Below are positions 5,580-54,047 of a stretch of DNA of 55,749 bases, one piece after another. Location: the NCBI GenBank assembly GCA_017517865.1, contig JAFWYB010000064.1:1-55749 (forward strand), in the 5' to 3' direction. A program made the position numbers and the translations under genes. The stretch comes from Clostridia bacterium. GTDB taxonomy: Bacteria; Bacillota; Clostridia; Oscillospirales; Acutalibacteraceae. The first letter of the stretch is position 1. Every line of letters starts with the position of its first letter. A model generated the notes under the pieces. That model worked only from the letters and a program-made list of their open reading frames with translations, was not told the origin of the DNA and made no database searches.

Positions 5580-5608
5580 AGCACGACCTACAATCTGTAT
5601 GTCGTGCT
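5580..5608 (-). terminator. Terminator after tnpV (copy 1)
   Basis: Inverted repeat AGCACGAC/GTCGTGCT just past the tnpV stop on the minus strand, followed there by CAATTTTTGG. A closely related hairpin (AGCACG/CGTGCT around a similar ACTTACA..TGTAGG core) recurs at 34551-34580 next to a cassette remnant. Confidence 0.65.
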
Positions 5609-5627: not shown

Positions 5628-5993
5628 TTAACTGTATATCAGCTCACTACATACAATCTCTCTTGCACGTTGCTGAATGTTTCCCATCCTCTGCACCCAC
5701 TCAAGCTGGTCTTGTTCTTTCAATTCTTCGTTTACTCCTTCAGATACCTTCATTTGCTCAATCAAAAGGTCATACATTTCATTTGCCTGACGGTCAATAT
5801 CTGCAAGATAAGGCCAAAGTGTGCATTTAGTTATCATCAGCATAAACAGACCTCGTTTGTTGTGCTCAAGGTAATCTTTATGCATCATTCCCCATTTACC
5901 AAGGGTAATATTTGCTTGTTCGGGAGGCAGGATAATATTAGGAATTTTATAGTCGCCAACCTGTCGATAAGTTATCTTTGTTTTGTTTGACAT
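5628..5993 (-). CDS. tnpV: TnpV family transposon-associated protein (copy 1)
   Basis: A small protein of about 121 residues with the TnpV signature near its start (ITYRQVGDYKIP), a central LWPYLADIDRQANEMYDLL, and a C-terminal WVQRMGNIQQRAREIV. TnpV is carried on mobile elements of Clostridia; its biochemical role is not established. ATG at 5993 is chosen because AAGGAGG lies eight bases upstream, rather than the in-frame start at 6026, which would overlap the preceding small gene. Its closest relative in this window is the second copy at 53649-54014, with nearly the same sequence throughout. It is the last gene of a three-gene minus-strand cassette. Confidence 0.85.
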   Translation of the reverse strand: MSNKTKITYRQVGDYKIPNIILPPEQANITLGKWGMMHKDYLEHNKRGLFMLMITKCTLWPYLADIDRQANEMYDLLIEQMKVSEGVNEELKEQDQLEWVQRMGNIQQRAREIVCSELIYS

Positions 5994-6006: not shown

Positions 6007-6165
6007 TTATTTTTCATAAGTATCAATGAGTTTTAAAAGCAGTTCGTCAACATCCTCGGTGGGTAAATCCTCCGCTAAAAGCATATTGCGAAACTCATTC
6101 ATACCATTGATAAGTAAATTACATTCAAAGCTGTCAAGTTTAAGTTTGATTTTTTTGCTGAACAT
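6007..6165 (-). CDS. Small conserved cassette protein (52 aa, copy 1)
   Basis: A 52-residue ORF whose core (FECNLL.NGMNEFRN, then LPTEDV) is closely matched by the 51-residue ORF at 53198-53353. Conservation of protein sequence between two diverged copies shows it is a real gene. It is charged and helical, without a recognised domain, and could be a small DNA-binding or partner protein of TnpV/DUF6809, but nothing shows which. Its GGAGG is buried in an 11-base-pair hairpin directly upstream. Its stop lies 13 bases before the tnpV start. Confidence 0.75.
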   Translation of the reverse strand: MFSKKIKLKLDSFECNLLINGMNEFRNMLLAEDLPTEDVDELLLKLIDTYEK

Positions 6166-6173
6166 AAAATTTT

Positions 6174-6211
6174 ACCTCCTTGTATTTTGTAATTAAATTG
6201 TACAAGGAGGT
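6174..6211 (-). promoter_or_regulatory. Leader hairpin hiding the ribosome site (cassette copy 1)
   Basis: Read on the minus strand, ACCTCCTTGTA pairs perfectly with TACAAGGAGGT across a 16-base AT-rich loop. The second arm contains the GGAGG of the 52-aa gene, eight to nine bases from its ATG, so the folded leader would block initiation. Upstream at 6221-6229 is ACATTCGAC, also found just before the equivalent hairpin of copy 2. Confidence 0.7.
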
Positions 6212-6238
6212 GCGACTTTTGTCGAATGTGTGAGATTA

Positions 6239-6505
6239 CTATTTTATAAAAGTATCATAAGCAAATCTCGCACCGAATCTAAATCCTGATATGAAACTGT
6301 CAGAATTACTGATACTTGAAAATTCGTTGTAAGCACAAGTATAGTTCGAAAAAAGTTCTTTCTCTTCTTCAGATAGCTTAGAAGTCAGTTCTTCCTCTTT
6401 CTTTACAAGCTCACTTAATTTCTTTTTGAGTCTTGGTGTAATTTCAGTAGTAAGCTCTTGCGGTTCAAGATTCCCGTAGAATAATTCTTCTATTATATTT
6501 GACAT
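6239..6505 (-). CDS. DUF6809-like cassette protein (copy 1)
   Basis: An 88-residue protein with a charged, probably coiled-coil middle (ITPRLKKKL followed by an EEEL/SEEEKEL stretch) and a glycine/aromatic C-terminus (FISGFRFGARFAYDTF). Most positions are shared with 53365-53643. I place it in the DUF6809 family from memory of such proteins; function unknown. ATG at 6505 is chosen over 6544 because GGAGG is eight bases upstream. In this copy it precedes the small gene; in copy 2 it follows it. Confidence 0.75.
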   Translation of the reverse strand: MSNIIEELFYGNLEPQELTTEITPRLKKKLSELVKKEEELTSKLSEEEKELFSNYTCAYNEFSSISNSDSFISGFRFGARFAYDTFIK

Positions 6506-6599
6506 TATGTATTCCTCCGCGTATGAGGAAAATCTATATAGCACGGTGAATGTGTGTTACCGGAGAATTGAACTTGTGTTATGAATATCCGCACCATAG

Positions 6600-6635: not shown

Positions 6636-6847
6636 ATTTTTTTGCTCTTTTTCGCTGTTTTCCCAAGTGTTTTTTCACTTGCACAACTGAAATTTTACAT
6701 AAAAAATCCTTGTACCGGAACTAAACGTACAAGGATTTTAATGTATTCAGATTGGTTTGTTTGGCAGGACTTTGCAGATTCATTCCTACAAACTAAAATT
6801 TGATATAGTTGGGTTGGAACATACTTTTAACGTTACAACACAAAAAA

Positions 6848-7393
6848 TCACATAATATCTGTGTTATATACCGCTCTCTCTCCGCCGATGAATTTGGGCC
6901 TTGTTCTGGCTGCCACAATCAAGGCTTCGCCTATTCTGTTGTTTTCAAGGCGCAAGGGTACTGCAACCTTTTTCAGATTCATACCTATCAGGGTCAGTCC
7001 TATATCTATACCGGCATCGGCTTTTATTTCTTCAAGAAGCACAGGCTCTTTAAAATGCCCGTATGCCTGAGCAGCCATTGAGCCGCCTGCCTTGGGCTGC
7101 GGTACAACATTAACATATTCCGCATACGGTACAGCTTCTTTTTCTATAACTATGGCACGGTTAAGATGCTCACAGCATTGAATTGCTAAATACCACTCAT
7201 TTTTGAGCGCGACTTCATATAAAGCTTCAAAAACAATCTTTGCCGTATCGGGTGAAGAATTAGTGCCTATACTTGAGCCTGTTATTTCACTTGTTGAGCA
7301 GCCTATTATAACAATGCTTCCTGCAGTCAACCTTGCTTTATTTCCTAATTCTTCCAGAACAGCCTTTGCCTGAAGATACAGTTTTTTATCCAT
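6848..7393 (-). CDS. ywlG: DUF436 / TIGR01440 (UPF0340) protein
   Basis: A 181-residue protein of the UPF0340 (YwlG, TIGR01440) family, recognisable by GCSTSEI.GSSIGTNSS near residues 31-47, CCEHLNRA, VNVVPQPKAGGS and GIDIGLTLIGM. The length equals the family norm. No activity is established for the family. Here it is the last gene of the NAD biosynthesis operon, 15 bases after niaR, which hints at a NAD-linked or housekeeping role, though position alone is weak evidence. Confidence 0.82.
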   Translation of the reverse strand: MDKKLYLQAKAVLEELGNKARLTAGSIVIIGCSTSEITGSSIGTNSSPDTAKIVFEALYEVALKNEWYLAIQCCEHLNRAIVIEKEAVPYAEYVNVVPQPKAGGSMAAQAYGHFKEPVLLEEIKADAGIDIGLTLIGMNLKKVAVPLRLENNRIGEALIVAARTRPKFIGGERAVYNTDIM

Positions 7394-7408
7394 ATTATTC
7401 GTCTCCTT

Positions 7409-7921
7409 TTAAATTCCGGGAGCGATAAAGCCCTTGCTGTTTAGAGCAAATTCAATTTTGTCAAGAATCTCTTCCTTTTCAGCACGGACAGTGTGATAAT
7501 GATAACCGCCGGTTATGTTCATAAGCTCCGTTGACTTTCCGCTTCTTACACCTTCAATAAACTGCTTAATCTGAAGTGCGGAGAAAATATTTAGGGGTGC
7601 AACCATTTTTCCGTAAACCTTATGCCAGACGAAAACATCAACCACGGTACCGCCGAGTTCAACAATGGTGTTAAGCTCGTCCTCTGTTTCCTCAGTGGTG
7701 TGCTTCAGCTTGAAAACCCTCTCCTTCAGAGGTGACTTCTGAAGAATGTAACCGTTATGGGTTGAAAGAATATCGAAGCCCTGACCCTTAAGCACAGAAA
7801 TATCCTGTACGATTATCTGTCTGGATACTCCGCACTTTTCCGAAAACTCTCCTCCGGATATTGGTCTGTCTACTGAAAGCAGAAGGTTTATAATAGATTT
7901 TCTTCTTTCCTGTGCCTTCAT
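7409..7921 (-). CDS. niaR: NiaR-type transcription repressor (HTH plus 3H domain)
   Basis: A 170-residue regulator. An N-terminal helix-turn-helix of the HTH_11 type (about residues 1-60, CGVSRQIIVQDISVLK) is followed by a 3H ligand domain with conserved histidines in VWHKVYGK and GGYHYHTVRAEKEE. NiaR (YrxA) proteins bind nicotinic acid and repress NAD biosynthesis genes. Encoded in the nadABC operon itself, 21 bases after nadC, it probably autoregulates through the operator upstream of nadA. Identification is strong from both domain pattern and context. Confidence 0.9.
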   Translation of the reverse strand: MKAQERRKSIINLLLSVDRPISGGEFSEKCGVSRQIIVQDISVLKGQGFDILSTHNGYILQKSPLKERVFKLKHTTEETEDELNTIVELGGTVVDVFVWHKVYGKMVAPLNIFSALQIKQFIEGVRSGKSTELMNITGGYHYHTVRAEKEEILDKIEFALNSKGFIAPGI

Positions 7922-7942
7922 AATATTCTCCTTGAATTAAAA

Positions 7943-8794
7943 TTATATTGCATGAAGGTTTTTGAGTGAGAGGTCAAGAATTGGTGAAGAATGTGTGAGA
8001 GCACCGCTTGAAATGTAGTCAACTCCGATGTCAACGAGTCGTGCAACATTTTCCTTGGTAACATTACCGCTGCACTCAGTTTCAGCCTTGCCCTTGCAAA
8101 GCAGAACGGCTTCCTTCATATCTTCAACACTCATATTGTCAAGCATTATAATATCTGCACCGGCCTCAAGAGCTTCTCTGAGCATATCAAGATTTTCAAC
8201 CTCAACCTCGATTTTGCGTACAAAGGGTGCGTACTCTTTGGCCATGGTAACAGCTTCTTTTACACCGCCTGCGGCTCCGATATGGTTATCCTTAAGGAGA
8301 ATACCGTCGCTTAAATTATAGCGGTGATTGTAACCTCCGCCGACCTTAACTGCGTACTTTTCAAAAATTCTCATATTCGGTGTAGTCTTACGGGTATCAA
8401 GAAGCTTTGTTGATGTACCTTTGAGAAGGTCAGCTGTTTTTCTTGTATAAGTGGCAATGCCGCTCATTCTCTGAAGATAGTTGAGTGCTGTTCTTTCACC
8501 CGAAAGGAGCACCCTGATATCACCTTTGACAAGACCGATTTTCTGTCCGTTTGCAACAAAGTCACCGTCTTTTACGGTAAAGCTGACCTCAGTATTTTCA
8601 TCGAGCAACTCAAATACTCTTTTGAAGACATCAAGACCTGCAATAACACCGTCTTCCTTACAGATAAGGTCAACCTCACCGAGCTGATAGCACGGCATAA
8701 CGGAATTGGTTGTAATATCCTCGCTTGTTATATCCTCCTGTAAGGCACTTAAAATAAGATTATCTGCATTGAGCTTCATTGAAATATCATTCAT
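7943..8794 (-). CDS. nadC: Nicotinate-nucleotide diphosphorylase (quinolinate phosphoribosyltransferase)
   Basis: A 283-residue enzyme converting quinolinate and PRPP to nicotinate mononucleotide, CO2 and pyrophosphate, the third step of de novo NAD synthesis. Visible signatures are LSGERTALNYLQRMSGIAT, LLDTRKTTPNMR, GGGYNHRYNLSDGILLKDNH and, near the C-terminus, DIIMLDNMS. Full family length. The start overlaps the nadB stop region by eight bases, so translation is coupled. Standard housekeeping assignment. Confidence 0.95.
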   Translation of the reverse strand: MNDISMKLNADNLILSALQEDITSEDITTNSVMPCYQLGEVDLICKEDGVIAGLDVFKRVFELLDENTEVSFTVKDGDFVANGQKIGLVKGDIRVLLSGERTALNYLQRMSGIATYTRKTADLLKGTSTKLLDTRKTTPNMRIFEKYAVKVGGGYNHRYNLSDGILLKDNHIGAAGGVKEAVTMAKEYAPFVRKIEVEVENLDMLREALEAGADIIMLDNMSVEDMKEAVLLCKGKAETECSGNVTKENVARLVDIGVDYISSGALTHSSPILDLSLKNLHAI

Positions 8795-10061
8795 GGCTTT
8801 TTCTCTCCTTTTCTATCGCTTCAAGAACCGAAGCTTTGTATTTATCCTCGTAGCCTTCATAGGCTGAAGGGTCGACCATTATTTCTTTTTTATCATCTGA
8901 AACGGTGTAATTTTTCACAATGTCGGTTGCGGCTCGTTTTGCAAAAACAAGGCTTTCAAGAAGAGAATTACTTGCCAATCTGTTTTTGCCGTGAACACCG
9001 TTGCAGGCTGTTTCACCCACAGCGTAAAGTCTATCCATAGATGTTTTGCTGAAGGCATCAACATCAATACCGCCCATAAAATAATGCTGTGAGGGCACGA
9101 CCGGAATGGGCTCTTTGGTTACATCATAGCCTTCTTCAAGACAACGCTGATAAATATTAGGGAAATGGGCTCTGATTTCCTTTTCGGAAATGGGAGCAAG
9201 GGATAACCAAACATGCTCGCTGCCCTCTTTTTTCATCTCATCAAAAATGGCGTTTGCGACCACATCTCTCGGAAGAAGCTCGTTTACAAATCTTTCTCCC
9301 TTTGAGTTGAGAAGGATTGCACCCTCACCTCTTACTGATTCGGATATGAGAAACTCTCTGCCGTGCTTTTCGGTGTAGAGGGTTGTAGGATGAATCTGTA
9401 TGTAATCAATATGCTTAAGCCTTATTCCGTGCTTCAAGGCTACCGCCAAAGCGTCGCCCGTCAGGTGTCGGTAATTGGTTGAATGCTTGAACAAACCGCC
9501 TATACCGCCCGTAGCAAGAACCGTGTAATCTGCACTTATGCTTATATACTCACCCTTCTCATTGTGACCTATAATGCCTTTACACTCATCATTATTGCAG
9601 ATAAGGTCTACCATTGTAAAGTTTTCTATAAGAGTAATATTTCTTCTGTTTCTTACAGTGTTAAGTAAATTCTGTGTAATTTCCTTGCCCGTTTCATCCT
9701 CGTGGAACAAAATTCTCGGATTTGAATGAGCTCCTTCACGGGTATATGTAAATTCTTCACCGTCTTTTTCAAATTTAGCACCGAAGAAAACAAGGTCCCT
9801 TATTACCTCCTGAGAGGACCGAATCATAATTTCTACAGAATCCGGGTTGTTTTCATAGTGACCTGCTCTCATCGTATCTTCATAAAAGGCATTGAAATCC
9901 GATTCATCACGCAGAACACATATACCGCCTTGTGCAAGGAATGAGTCACTTTTAGGAGCTTCATCCTTTGTTACAATAGTAATCTTTTTATATTCAGGCA
10001 GATTGAGTGCACAGTAAAGCCCTGCTACACCGCTGCCTACAATAATAACATCTGTATTCAT
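8787..10061 (-). CDS. nadB: L-aspartate oxidase
   Basis: A 424-residue flavoprotein that oxidises L-aspartate to iminoaspartate for quinolinate synthesis. The FAD-binding VIIVGSGVAGLYCAL lies at the N-terminus. The substrate region includes LAQGGICVLRD, HEDETGKEI, IQIHPTTLY, SVRGEGAILLN and GVHGKNRLASNSLLES. It is about 100 residues shorter than enterobacterial NadB, apparently lacking most of the C-terminal helical domain. In an anaerobe fumarate rather than oxygen is the likely electron acceptor (inference). Confidence 0.94.
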   Translation of the reverse strand: MNTDVIIVGSGVAGLYCALNLPEYKKITIVTKDEAPKSDSFLAQGGICVLRDESDFNAFYEDTMRAGHYENNPDSVEIMIRSSQEVIRDLVFFGAKFEKDGEEFTYTREGAHSNPRILFHEDETGKEITQNLLNTVRNRRNITLIENFTMVDLICNNDECKGIIGHNEKGEYISISADYTVLATGGIGGLFKHSTNYRHLTGDALAVALKHGIRLKHIDYIQIHPTTLYTEKHGREFLISESVRGEGAILLNSKGERFVNELLPRDVVANAIFDEMKKEGSEHVWLSLAPISEKEIRAHFPNIYQRCLEEGYDVTKEPIPVVPSQHYFMGGIDVDAFSKTSMDRLYAVGETACNGVHGKNRLASNSLLESLVFAKRAATDIVKNYTVSDDKKEIMVDPSAYEGYEDKYKASVLEAIEKERKSHE

Positions 10062-52760: not shown

Positions 52761-52894
52761 TGAGGTCTCCACCGGAGACCCGTACCCCACGACACGCTCC
52801 GCGTGCCTCGGGTTCTTGGTTCTGCTCGTATTTATAAAAAGTAAAGGACACCGCGTTAGCGATGTCCTTTGGCAGGGGCAGAAGGGCTCGAACC
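52761..52894. repeat. Copy 2 of the tRNA-Trp-tail / GGTCTCC-palindrome repeat
   Basis: Contains the palindrome GGTCTCCaccGGAGACC (52763-52779), a terminator-like stem AAAGGACA/TGTCCTTT (52843-52870), and a minus-strand tRNA 3' end (52870-52894: GGTTCGAGCC, then TGCCCCTGCCA). The stem directly follows the CCA on the minus strand, as a terminator after a tRNA gene. Same orientation as the copy at 39836-39923, 13 kb away. Confidence 0.65.
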
Positions 52895-53034
52895 ACTACG
52901 TGGCCCTCTTGCGGTTCCCGAAATTTCTTTCGGCTTGGTGCGCCGAGAAATTTCGACCGCTGCGCCATCCTCGCCTCGCTTCATCTCACACCGGGAGCGC
53001 TTCGCCGACGATGCCCGGCACGCGGTTTTGGAGG
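52870..53034 (-). other. Split tRNA-Trp-like sequence, possible integration (att) site
   Basis: On the minus strand 53019-53034 reads CCTCCAAAACCGCGTG, an anticodon arm with the CCA anticodon of tRNA-Trp. 124 bases later (52870-52894) comes a T-loop/acceptor end with TTCGAGC and TGCCCCTGCCA, as in Firmicute tRNA-Trp. No 5' half (AGGGGCA start, D-arm) is present, so this is not a working tRNA; a tRNA 3' half is a common integration core. The T-stem also fails to pair. The 124-base insert holds a hairpin (CGAAATTTCTTTCGGC with GCCGAGAAATTTCG). The rest of 52796-53134 shows no gene I can support. Confidence 0.5.
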
Positions 53035-53134
53035 ATAGTATTCTTTCCTTATTTGATGCGGTTTAGAGGGCTTCAGGGGGGCACATTGGGGGGCACATAG
53101 CTTTTACATTTTAGTATTTTATTGTGTTTTTCAT

Positions 53135-53192
53135 ACATTCGACTAACCTCCGGTTATGCGGTAGAATGAAGCTACCAAATAACAAGGAGGTT
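53135..53192 (+). promoter_or_regulatory. Leader hairpin hiding the ribosome site (cassette copy 2)
   Basis: ACATTCGAC at 53135-53143 matches copy 1. Next comes a nested hairpin: AACCTCC (53145-53151) with GGAGGTT (53186-53192), GTTAT (53153-53157) with ATAAC (53179-53183), and GGTA with TACC inside. The 3' arm is the ribosome site of the 51-aa gene. Apart from the outer ACCTCC/GGAGGT, the inner stem differs from copy 1 but still pairs. Confidence 0.72.
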
Positions 53193-53197
53193 TTATT

Positions 53198-53353
53198 ATG
53201 AGAAGAAAAGTAAAAATAAAATTCACGGATTTTGAGTGCAATTTACTTGTCAATGGTATGAATGAATTTCGTAATTTGCTCTTGGCGGAAGGTTTACCCA
53301 CTGAGGATGTTAATAAGCTATTACTGAAAATTATTGATAAAAGTGAAAGGTAA
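53198..53353 (+). CDS. Small conserved cassette protein (51 aa, copy 2)
   Basis: Counterpart of 6007-6165, sharing FECNLLVNGMNEFRN.LLAE.LPTEDV with only conservative changes. The N-terminus is basic (MRRKVKIK). GGAGG at 53186-53190 precedes the ATG, inside the leader hairpin. In this copy the gene comes first and DUF6809 follows after 11 bases. Function unknown. Confidence 0.75.
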   Translation: MRRKVKIKFTDFECNLLVNGMNEFRNLLLAEGLPTEDVNKLLLKIIDKSER

Positions 53354-53364
53354 GGTGTGATCTT

Positions 53365-53643
53365 ATGTCGAGCATTATAGAAGATTTTTATTACGGCAAC
53401 ATAGAGCCGCAGGCACTCTCAACAGAAATCACACCAAGACTCAAAAAGAAGCTGAATGTACTTGTGAAGAAAGAAGAAGAGCTTTCAGCAATGCTCCCCG
53501 AAAAGGAAAAAGAGCTGTTTGCAAATTATGTGTGCGCATATAATGAATTTTCAAGTATCAGCATTTCTGACGGTTTTATTTCGGGCTTCCGGCTCGGTGC
53601 AAGATTTACATACGATACTTTTATTGAAGCCAAGAAAGGATGA
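53365..53643 (+). CDS. DUF6809-like cassette protein (copy 2)
   Basis: A 92-residue counterpart of 6239-6505, with the same core (ITPRLKKKLNVLVKKEEELS, FANYVCAYNEFSSIS, FISGFRLGARFTYDTFIE). Helical and charged; no recognised activity. AAGGTG precedes the start. The stop lies five bases before the tnpV start. Confidence 0.75.
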   Translation: MSSIIEDFYYGNIEPQALSTEITPRLKKKLNVLVKKEEELSAMLPEKEKELFANYVCAYNEFSSISISDGFISGFRLGARFTYDTFIEAKKG

Positions 53644-53648
53644 CAATT

Positions 53649-54014
53649 ATGGAAAACAAATCAAAGATAACTTATCGACAGGTTGGCGACTATAAAATTC
53701 CGAACATTAACCTGCCGTCTGAACAAGCAAATATCATCATTGGCAAATGGGGTATGCTACACAAAAACTACCTTGAACATAACAAGCGAGGTATATTTAT
53801 GCTAATGGTAACCAAATGCACCCTTTGGCCTTATCTTGCAGATATTGACCGTCAGGCAAATGAAATGTACGACCTTTTGATTGAACAGATGAAAGAGGCG
53901 GAAGGTGTTACAGAAAAACTAAAAGAAGAAAATCAGATGGAGTGGGTGCAGAGAATGAGCAATATTCAGCAAAAGGCAAGAGAGATTGTTTGCAATGAAT
54001 TGATTTATAAATAA
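53649..54014 (+). CDS. tnpV: TnpV family transposon-associated protein (copy 2)
   Basis: Second tnpV copy, 121 residues, nearly identical to 5628-5993 (KITYRQVGDYKIPNINLP, LWPYLADIDRQANEMYDLL, WVQRMSNIQQKAREIV). ATG at 53649 is preferred to 53640 because GAAAGGA at 53634-53640 then has usual spacing. The whole cassette is on the plus strand here and the minus strand in copy 1. No transposase or recombinase is encoded with it. Confidence 0.85.
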   Translation: MENKSKITYRQVGDYKIPNINLPSEQANIIIGKWGMLHKNYLEHNKRGIFMLMVTKCTLWPYLADIDRQANEMYDLLIEQMKEAEGVTEKLKEENQMEWVQRMSNIQQKAREIVCNELIYK

Positions 54015-54019
54015 CAACA

Positions 54020-54047
54020 GAAGTGGCAGGGATGACTCTGCCACTTC
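54020..54047 (+). terminator. Terminator after tnpV (copy 2)
   Basis: GAAGTGGCAG and CTGCCACTTC, ten base pairs, eight-base loop, followed by GTTTGTATAAA. Sequence is unrelated to the terminator of copy 1. Confidence 0.75.

Follow-up and report, generated by a model that had tools for sequence, protein, structure and literature searches.

A candidate promoter with an anti-Shine-Dalgarno spacer as a possible read-through lock of TnpV cassettes in Clostridia

The DNA analysed here (hereafter the window) is a stretch of 55,749 nucleotides from a Clostridia bacterium of the Acutalibacteraceae (contig JAFWYB010000064.1). It contains two copies of a small gene cassette, each preceded by an inverted repeat that, when folded as RNA, covers the Shine-Dalgarno sequence of the first gene. 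This poses the question why a gene should be preceded by a structure that hides its own ribosome site. An earlier note interpreted the repeat as the regulatory leader of a 52-aa gene, to be opened by a protein, temperature, antisense RNA or transcription from a neighbour. We propose, with a probability of roughly 0.7, that the leader constitutes the promoter of a TnpV cassette and acts as a read-through lock, in which the promoter spacer would serve as anti-Shine-Dalgarno sequence.

In copy 1 (minus strand, 6229..6166), an 11-bp stem formed by ACCTCCTTGTA and TACAAGGAGGT spans the gene's own GGAGG, and the leader folds at -18.7 kcal/mol (z -6.15 against dinucleotide shuffles). Copy 2 (53135..53197) retains ACATTCGAC and the pairing ACCTCC/GGAGGT, its inner stem differs from that of copy 1 (GTTAT/ATAAC and GGTAG/CTACC), and it folds at -21.8 kcal/mol (z -4.50); for neither copy was any of 200 shuffles as good. 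The stems could thus be located in both copies, as the earlier note had claimed for a structure sequestering the ribosome site. By themselves, however, the two window copies do not prove covariation, because the fixed GGAGG forces part of the pairing. In copy 1 the ACATTCGAC box begins 9 nt past the end of a codirectional DUF6809 gene (Table 1). Rfam gave no match in the window at gathering scores and, in a search of eight loci with E values up to 1, the leaders remained unmatched, only two tRNAs exceeding the gathering score.

Table 1. Features of the two cassette copies in the window.
Feature	Position	Strand	Basis
Copy 1, -35-like box TTCGAC (inside ACATTCGAC, 6221-6229)	6221..6226	-	pattern match 6197-6229; fixed spacing to TAnnAT
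Copy 1, 18-bp promoter spacer AAAAGTCGCACCTCCTTG, holding most of the 5' hairpin arm	6203..6220	-	sequence, pattern match
Copy 1, 5' arm ACCTCCTTGTA (anti-Shine-Dalgarno)	6201..6211	-	sequence, folding
Copy 1, putative -10 box TACAAT; start site expected at ~6190	6197..6202	-	pattern, spacing
Copy 1, 3' arm TACAAGGAGGT with Shine-Dalgarno GGAGG (6175-6179)	6174..6184	-	sequence, folding
Copy 1, 52-aa gene, without Pfam or NCBIfam match	6007..6165	-	
Copy 1, TnpV (PF14198)	5628..5993	-	Pfam
Copy 1, DUF6809 gene (PF20648), upstream of leader, codirectional	6239..6505	-	Pfam
Copy 1, terminator-like hairpin after TnpV	5580..5608	-	by eye
Copy 2, -35-like box TTCGAC (inside ACATTCGAC, 53135-53143)	53138..53143	+	sequence, pattern match
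Copy 2, 18-bp spacer TAACCTCCGGTTATGCGG with 5' arms AACCTCC and GTTAT	53144..53161	+	sequence, folding
Copy 2, putative -10 box TAGAAT; start site expected at ~53174	53162..53167	+	pattern, spacing
Copy 2, 3' arms CTACC, ATAAC and GGAGGTT (Shine-Dalgarno GGAGG, 53186-53190)	53172..53192	+	sequence, folding
Copy 2, 51-aa gene	53198..53353	+	
Copy 2, DUF6809 gene (PF20648)	53365..53643	+	Pfam
Copy 2, TnpV (PF14198)	53640..54014	+	Pfam
Copy 2, terminator-like hairpin after TnpV	54020..54047	+	by eye

The leader goes with the TnpV cassette and not, as the earlier note assumed, with the 52-aa gene: the same leader also directly precedes TnpV where the 52-aa gene is missing. In the 89 leaders followed by sufficient DNA, the gene chains were 52-aa gene, DUF6809 and TnpV (32), 52-aa gene and TnpV (20), TnpV alone (12) and others, and eight of these 89 leaders lie behind an upstream DUF6809 gene. 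A terminator-like hairpin is frequent at the end of the cassettes, with differing sequences. The TnpV profile (PF14198) matched the two window copies at 138 and 142.5 bits (cut-off 27). For the cassette proteins, NCBIfam contained no usable name, PHROGs only families of unknown function and weak matches, and a PDB sequence search gave no match. A Pfam scan of six cassette proteins revealed no transposase homology, and no transposon-type terminal repeats were found at the cassettes. AlphaFold2 models the 51-aa protein (window 53198-53350) as a two-helix hairpin (mean pLDDT 86.3), for which Foldseek found no match in the PDB at E ≤0.001. In Tn4451, TnpV occurs in a mobilizable element alongside the large serine recombinase TnpX and a mob gene, and is postulated to act in excision through its homology with lambda Xis (PMC3158075). 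We found no mention of DUF6809 in the open-licence papers searched, and none of TnpV among the top-ranked open-licence papers matching hairpin, ribosome or promoter.

The genome that contains the window holds 8 matches of the 52-aa protein and 21 of TnpV. The 52-aa protein was found in 21 of 59 relatives and, with a profile search, in 42 of 391 class genomes. TnpV was present in 28 of 39 relatives and in 70 of 196 class genomes, and in none of 14 control genomes. Some of the genomes recur among named ones, and duplicates were removed by sequence. A scan of named genomes yielded 178 confirmed places, the best 80 of which lie in uncultured Clostridia, Oscillospiraceae and similar, mostly of animal guts. 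In viral contigs 25 stretches matched a pattern and none was confirmed, no cassette relatives were found in phage sequences, and the plasmids contained one distant match, by eye without leader. Two variants deserve mention. Some 52-aa relatives (L133-L140) lie directly behind another ORF without a promoter leader, possibly in operons of conjugative elements. DUF6809-first cassettes (window 6506-6545, minus strand; L029, L218, L287) possess a short hairpin, TTCCTC-loop-GGAGGAA, just before the start codon, and this hairpin may lie within their own mRNA.

Comparison of the regions upstream of 421 distinct gene starts (115 of the 52-aa family, 221 of TnpV and 85 of DUF6809) showed that CATTCG occurs within 160 nt of 77, 33 and 4 of them, respectively, and that TANNAT follows at exactly 18 bp past the ACATTCGAC-type box in 74 of the 77, all 33 and one of the four. 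The boxes are invariant and the sequence between them is variable; the -10 box reads TAAAAT, TACAAT or TAGAAT in 104 of the 114 unique leaders. In the genome of the window the pattern ACATTCGWC-N18-TANNAT has 11 matches, seven before the 52-aa gene and four directly before TnpV, against one in the reversed control. A stricter pattern gave 10 matches (two in the same genome) across seven of 148 class genomes, against one control match; eight are located ahead of 52-aa-family or TnpV genes, a contig end truncates one and one is due to chance. ACATTCGAC with TAnnAT at 18 bp looks like a candidate housekeeping-type promoter. The earlier note had overlooked that ACATTCGAC and TACAAT/TAGAAT at fixed spacing resemble a promoter whose spacer contains the 5' arm. 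Among 22 loci in the genome of the window, 12 have the leader (one of them, L002, without the anti-Shine-Dalgarno sequence), 8 are cassette genes without leader and 2 (L221, L222) are without a gene call. We also considered a Spo0A box, since ACATTCGACA in copy 1 holds the reverse of a Spo0A-like box as judged by the consensus; this candidate was dropped because many leaders read TTCGACT or TTCGTC.

The position of the hairpin relative to this candidate promoter is central to its interpretation. Its 5' arm sits inside the -35/-10 spacer, upstream of the expected start site; with transcription assumed to start approximately 7 nt after the -10 box (i.e., 11 nt before the Shine-Dalgarno sequence in 76 and 12 nt in 18 of 99 TTCG leaders), mRNA from the cassette's own promoter should be without that arm. 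Similarity between cassettes starts within 8 bp of ACATTCG in 936 of 1492 pairwise alignments (84 cassettes, the pairs being non-independent); 90 alignments extend at least 60 bp upstream and 49 start inside the leader. Because cassette similarity mostly ends at the box, transcripts bearing both arms probably originate outside the cassette. The nearest upstream ORF is codirectional for 63 of 92 leaders (crude ORFs of at least 90 codons, within 400 nt), and whole tRNAs occur within 600 nt upstream of 5 out of 102 leaders. In the window, a block of minus-strand ORFs (6848-10061), which we take to be NAD-synthesis-like, runs towards copy 1, and a terminator-like hairpin (6702-6739) precedes the cassette. 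The region upstream of copy 2 (52860-53130) resembles, by eye, the 3' end of a tRNA and the end of an integrase gene. One leader elsewhere (L120) directly follows a tRNA-like 3' end and looks intact, although the TnpV frame of its cassette is broken by an internal stop.

The same data bear on a conventional regulatory leader, i.e., a hairpin carried by the cassette's own mRNA and opened by a protein, temperature or antisense RNA. A stable, conserved hairpin over the ribosome site is what such a leader would display, but each of these triggers would require a transcript bearing both arms and thus a start upstream of ACATTCGAC, where cassette similarity has mostly ended; moreover, the box and TAnnAT, 18 bp apart, are arranged like a promoter. 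Given the expected start site, the own-promoter mRNA should not contain both arms of a switch. We consider such a leader improbable. Of the earlier note's regulatory leader, the paired structure over the ribosome site stands, whereas the hairpin itself is probably missing from the cassette's own mRNA, its 5' arm lying in the promoter spacer.

Whether the pairing has been maintained through sequence change was assessed on leaders selected by motif alone: 116 of the 421 starts carry the loose motif, of which 114 are unique, forming 35 clusters at 80% identity. Evident false members (e.g., L252, L265, L276, L280 and L288-like coding matches) were retained in the 35-cluster test, and true leaders (L027, L041, L074 and L080 among others) were missed by the strict motif. 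When spacers were combined with their own downstream arm, the mean predicted energy was -12.57 kcal/mol, compared to -9.26 kcal/mol when arms were swapped between clusters (z -7.9; no permutation out of 100,000 was as low), a difference that stems largely from positions outside GGAGG because most partners share GGAGG. The swap test gave z -7.2 for TTCG clusters only (n = 23) and z -2.4 (p = 0.012) for clusters with another -35 box (n = 12); the own arm was the single best partner in only 8 of the 35 rows. Ungapped Watson-Crick scores for 101 leaders were 10.5 for own, 8.1 for swapped and 4.6 for spacer-shuffled combinations. For 42 gap-free leaders in one register, the covariation score was 0.136 vs. 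0.080 after shuffling (reached by 0 of 500 shuffles) and 17 cells were altered on both sides vs. 3.9 (0 of 500). Five pairs showed a double change, a number reached by 24 of 500 shuffles, and a control slid by +2 gave six such pairs, although the remaining measures favour the structure. These 42 rows are the unique ones among 44 leaders with the register of L004 as their best, other registers and Shine-Dalgarno distances being left out, and since the rows were picked for this register the value for paired cells leans towards structure. The conservation tests were based on clusters and not on a tree-aware null.

At least five stem registers occur among the leaders; arm sequence and register vary and complementarity stays. 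Examples of altered but still paired stems are CCTCCTTTAGTTT/AAACTAAAGGAGG (L008), CTCCTGTTATTTGGT/ACCAAATAACAGGAG (L114), GTAAATGCCTTC/GGAGGCGTTTAC (L243, G.U included) and AATCCTC..TTTGC/GCAAAG..GAGGATT (L143). A strand comparison meant to tell RNA from DNA pairing counted 42 departures of the G.U type and 26 of the A.C type (p = 0.068); these events are non-independent and repeated in one sub-family, and we draw no support from them. As a negative control, 138 clusters of starts from the same families without the motif showed a small excess (z -2.9; 12 of 138 at or below -12 kcal/mol), which is at least partly explained by true leaders that the strict motif misses: at least 6 of the 13 strongest control starts are by eye the same leader. 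The tests support the view that the arms remain complementary despite sequence change across the leader family. The earlier note had claimed that pairing survives sequence change and had proposed to align many leaders and test for covariation; the larger set agrees with this claim.

Conserved complementarity also bears on readings in which the repeat acts as DNA. It could be an operator to which a repressor binds as a dimer; the 52-aa protein, DUF6809 and TnpV would be conceivable repressors, as the repeat overlaps the promoter and the small cassette proteins are functionally uncharacterized. Arms that vary freely in sequence and register with complementarity kept are, however, not what a repressor site would show, and the Shine-Dalgarno sequence is part of the 3' arm, so that we regard an operator as slightly less probable still than the conventional leader. 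Least probable of all is that the repeat serves as a site of recombination or of single-strand hairpin formation at the end of a mobile cassette, comparable to a folded integron attC: it does lie at the left edge of the cassette and varies in sequence while it stays paired, but the pairing is centred on the Shine-Dalgarno sequence, the spacing to the -35 box, the -10 box and the Shine-Dalgarno sequence is fixed, and at the right end we saw only terminator-like hairpins, which differ in sequence, and no counterpart of the repeat.

In the read-through lock, the -35/-10 spacer of the promoter is complementary to the Shine-Dalgarno sequence of the first gene. Polymerase starting from the cassette's own promoter would begin downstream of the spacer and produce a leader of approximately 24 nt with a free ribosome site, whereas RNA entering from a neighbouring gene would hold both arms, form the hairpin and be poorly translated. 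Expression of the cassette would thus depend on its own promoter, with adjoining transcription shut out. Folding predictions for 99 unique TTCG leaders are consistent with this: the mean unpaired probability of the Shine-Dalgarno sequence is 0.04 in read-through RNA, 0.27 with a shuffled spacer and 0.54 in own-promoter mRNA. It is predicted to fall below 0.2 in read-through RNA for 91 of the 99, and accessibility in the own mRNA is moderate (>0.5 in 63 of 99). For 15 leaders with another -35 box, read-through RNA (0.30) showed no extra closure over shuffled spacers (0.31; p = 0.80; own mRNA 0.62). Sequestration of the ribosome site in upstream-initiated transcripts, as in the phage T4 and sigG systems discussed below, is therefore predicted for the 99 TTCG leaders and not for the 15 others. 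The earlier note listed transcription from a neighbour among the events that open the stem; the predicted effect is the opposite, as neighbour RNA should close the ribosome site.

The surroundings of the leaders offer a further indication. A terminator-like hairpin lies upstream of 11 of 17 leaders predicted to be open in read-through RNA vs. 25 of 94 closed ones (p = 0.004), and by cluster of 7 of 13 open vs. 13 of 60 closed (p = 0.035). At the cluster level this link fades with stricter thresholds (p = 0.019, 0.035, 0.073, 0.142); it is an exploratory result, looked for once the data had been seen, and not independent of descent. Where a terminator precedes the leader the stems are weaker (-13.0 vs. 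-16.2, p = 0.02), and leaders of the L002/L011 type, preceded by a strong terminator, have kept the promoter spacing and lost the anti-Shine-Dalgarno sequence.

We infer three parts of the lock model, i.e., the start site, the translational block and the advantage. The latter may be that, within a moving or copied cassette, a relative of a proposed excision protein is kept under tight control; as TnpV is postulated to act in excision, silence under foreign promoters would be useful. Somewhat more tentatively, with the balance tipping only slightly in favour, the leaders may represent a class without Rfam match: a mobile-cassette promoter whose 18-bp spacer doubles as promoter geometry in DNA and as lock in read-through RNA. 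A multi-copy cassette of this kind (21 TnpV matches in the genome of the window) could land beside any gene, remain silent to its transcription and answer its own promoter only, the lock decaying where a terminator shields it.

If true, this would be a general way for small mobile gene units to shield themselves from transcription of the host, recurring in dozens of diverged leaders and hence open to comparative study, and a compact natural part combining promoter and read-through insulation in approximately 60 bp. For TnpV cassettes it makes a direct prediction: the same gene in two transcripts, only one of which is translated. A further lesson would be that a conserved hairpin in front of a gene may lie outside that gene's own mRNA.

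Protection from outside transcription is known for the transposase genes of Tn10/IS10 and other IS elements ("fold-back inhibition"), in the IS10 type for a transposase gene with terminal inverted repeats. The TnpV cassettes would likewise be mobile units silent in transcripts from outside, but TnpV does not belong to the transposases, and we found no terminal repeats of this kind. The wording "fold-back inhibition" was not found among the top-ranked open-licence literature matches. The ISPpu9 transposase gene also has a structured leader around the ribosome site of a mobile element (PMC8450116); unlike in the TnpV leaders, this structure lies in a long 5'-UTR of its own mRNA and is accompanied by regulating small RNAs.

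Closer counterparts occur in phages and Bacillus. The ribosome site of phage T4 genes e, soc, 49, I-TevI/II/III and segB and of Aeh1 mobE is sequestered in upstream-initiated transcripts, and for e and I-TevI a late promoter just upstream yields transcripts without the 5' strand; several of these genes are mobile elements (PMC3014915, PMC2988022). The likeness proposed for the TnpV leader is a ribosome site predicted to be shut in the long transcript and a local-promoter transcript that would lack the 5' strand. The difference is that the T4 genes serve phage timing via a late sigma factor, whereas the TnpV leader is part of a cassette present in many copies on clostridial chromosomes and has a candidate promoter of housekeeping type, the block being only predicted. 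In B. subtilis sigG, a hairpin has been proposed to block the translation of read-through transcripts from PspoIIG and to be unable to form in those from PsigG (PMC5942855); this concerns one sporulation gene and a hairpin of 20+ pairs, in contrast to a leader family with covarying arms in the promoter spacer. The best explanation, in our analysis, is that read-through locks, already known from single T4 and Bacillus genes, are here spread over a multi-copy cassette family.
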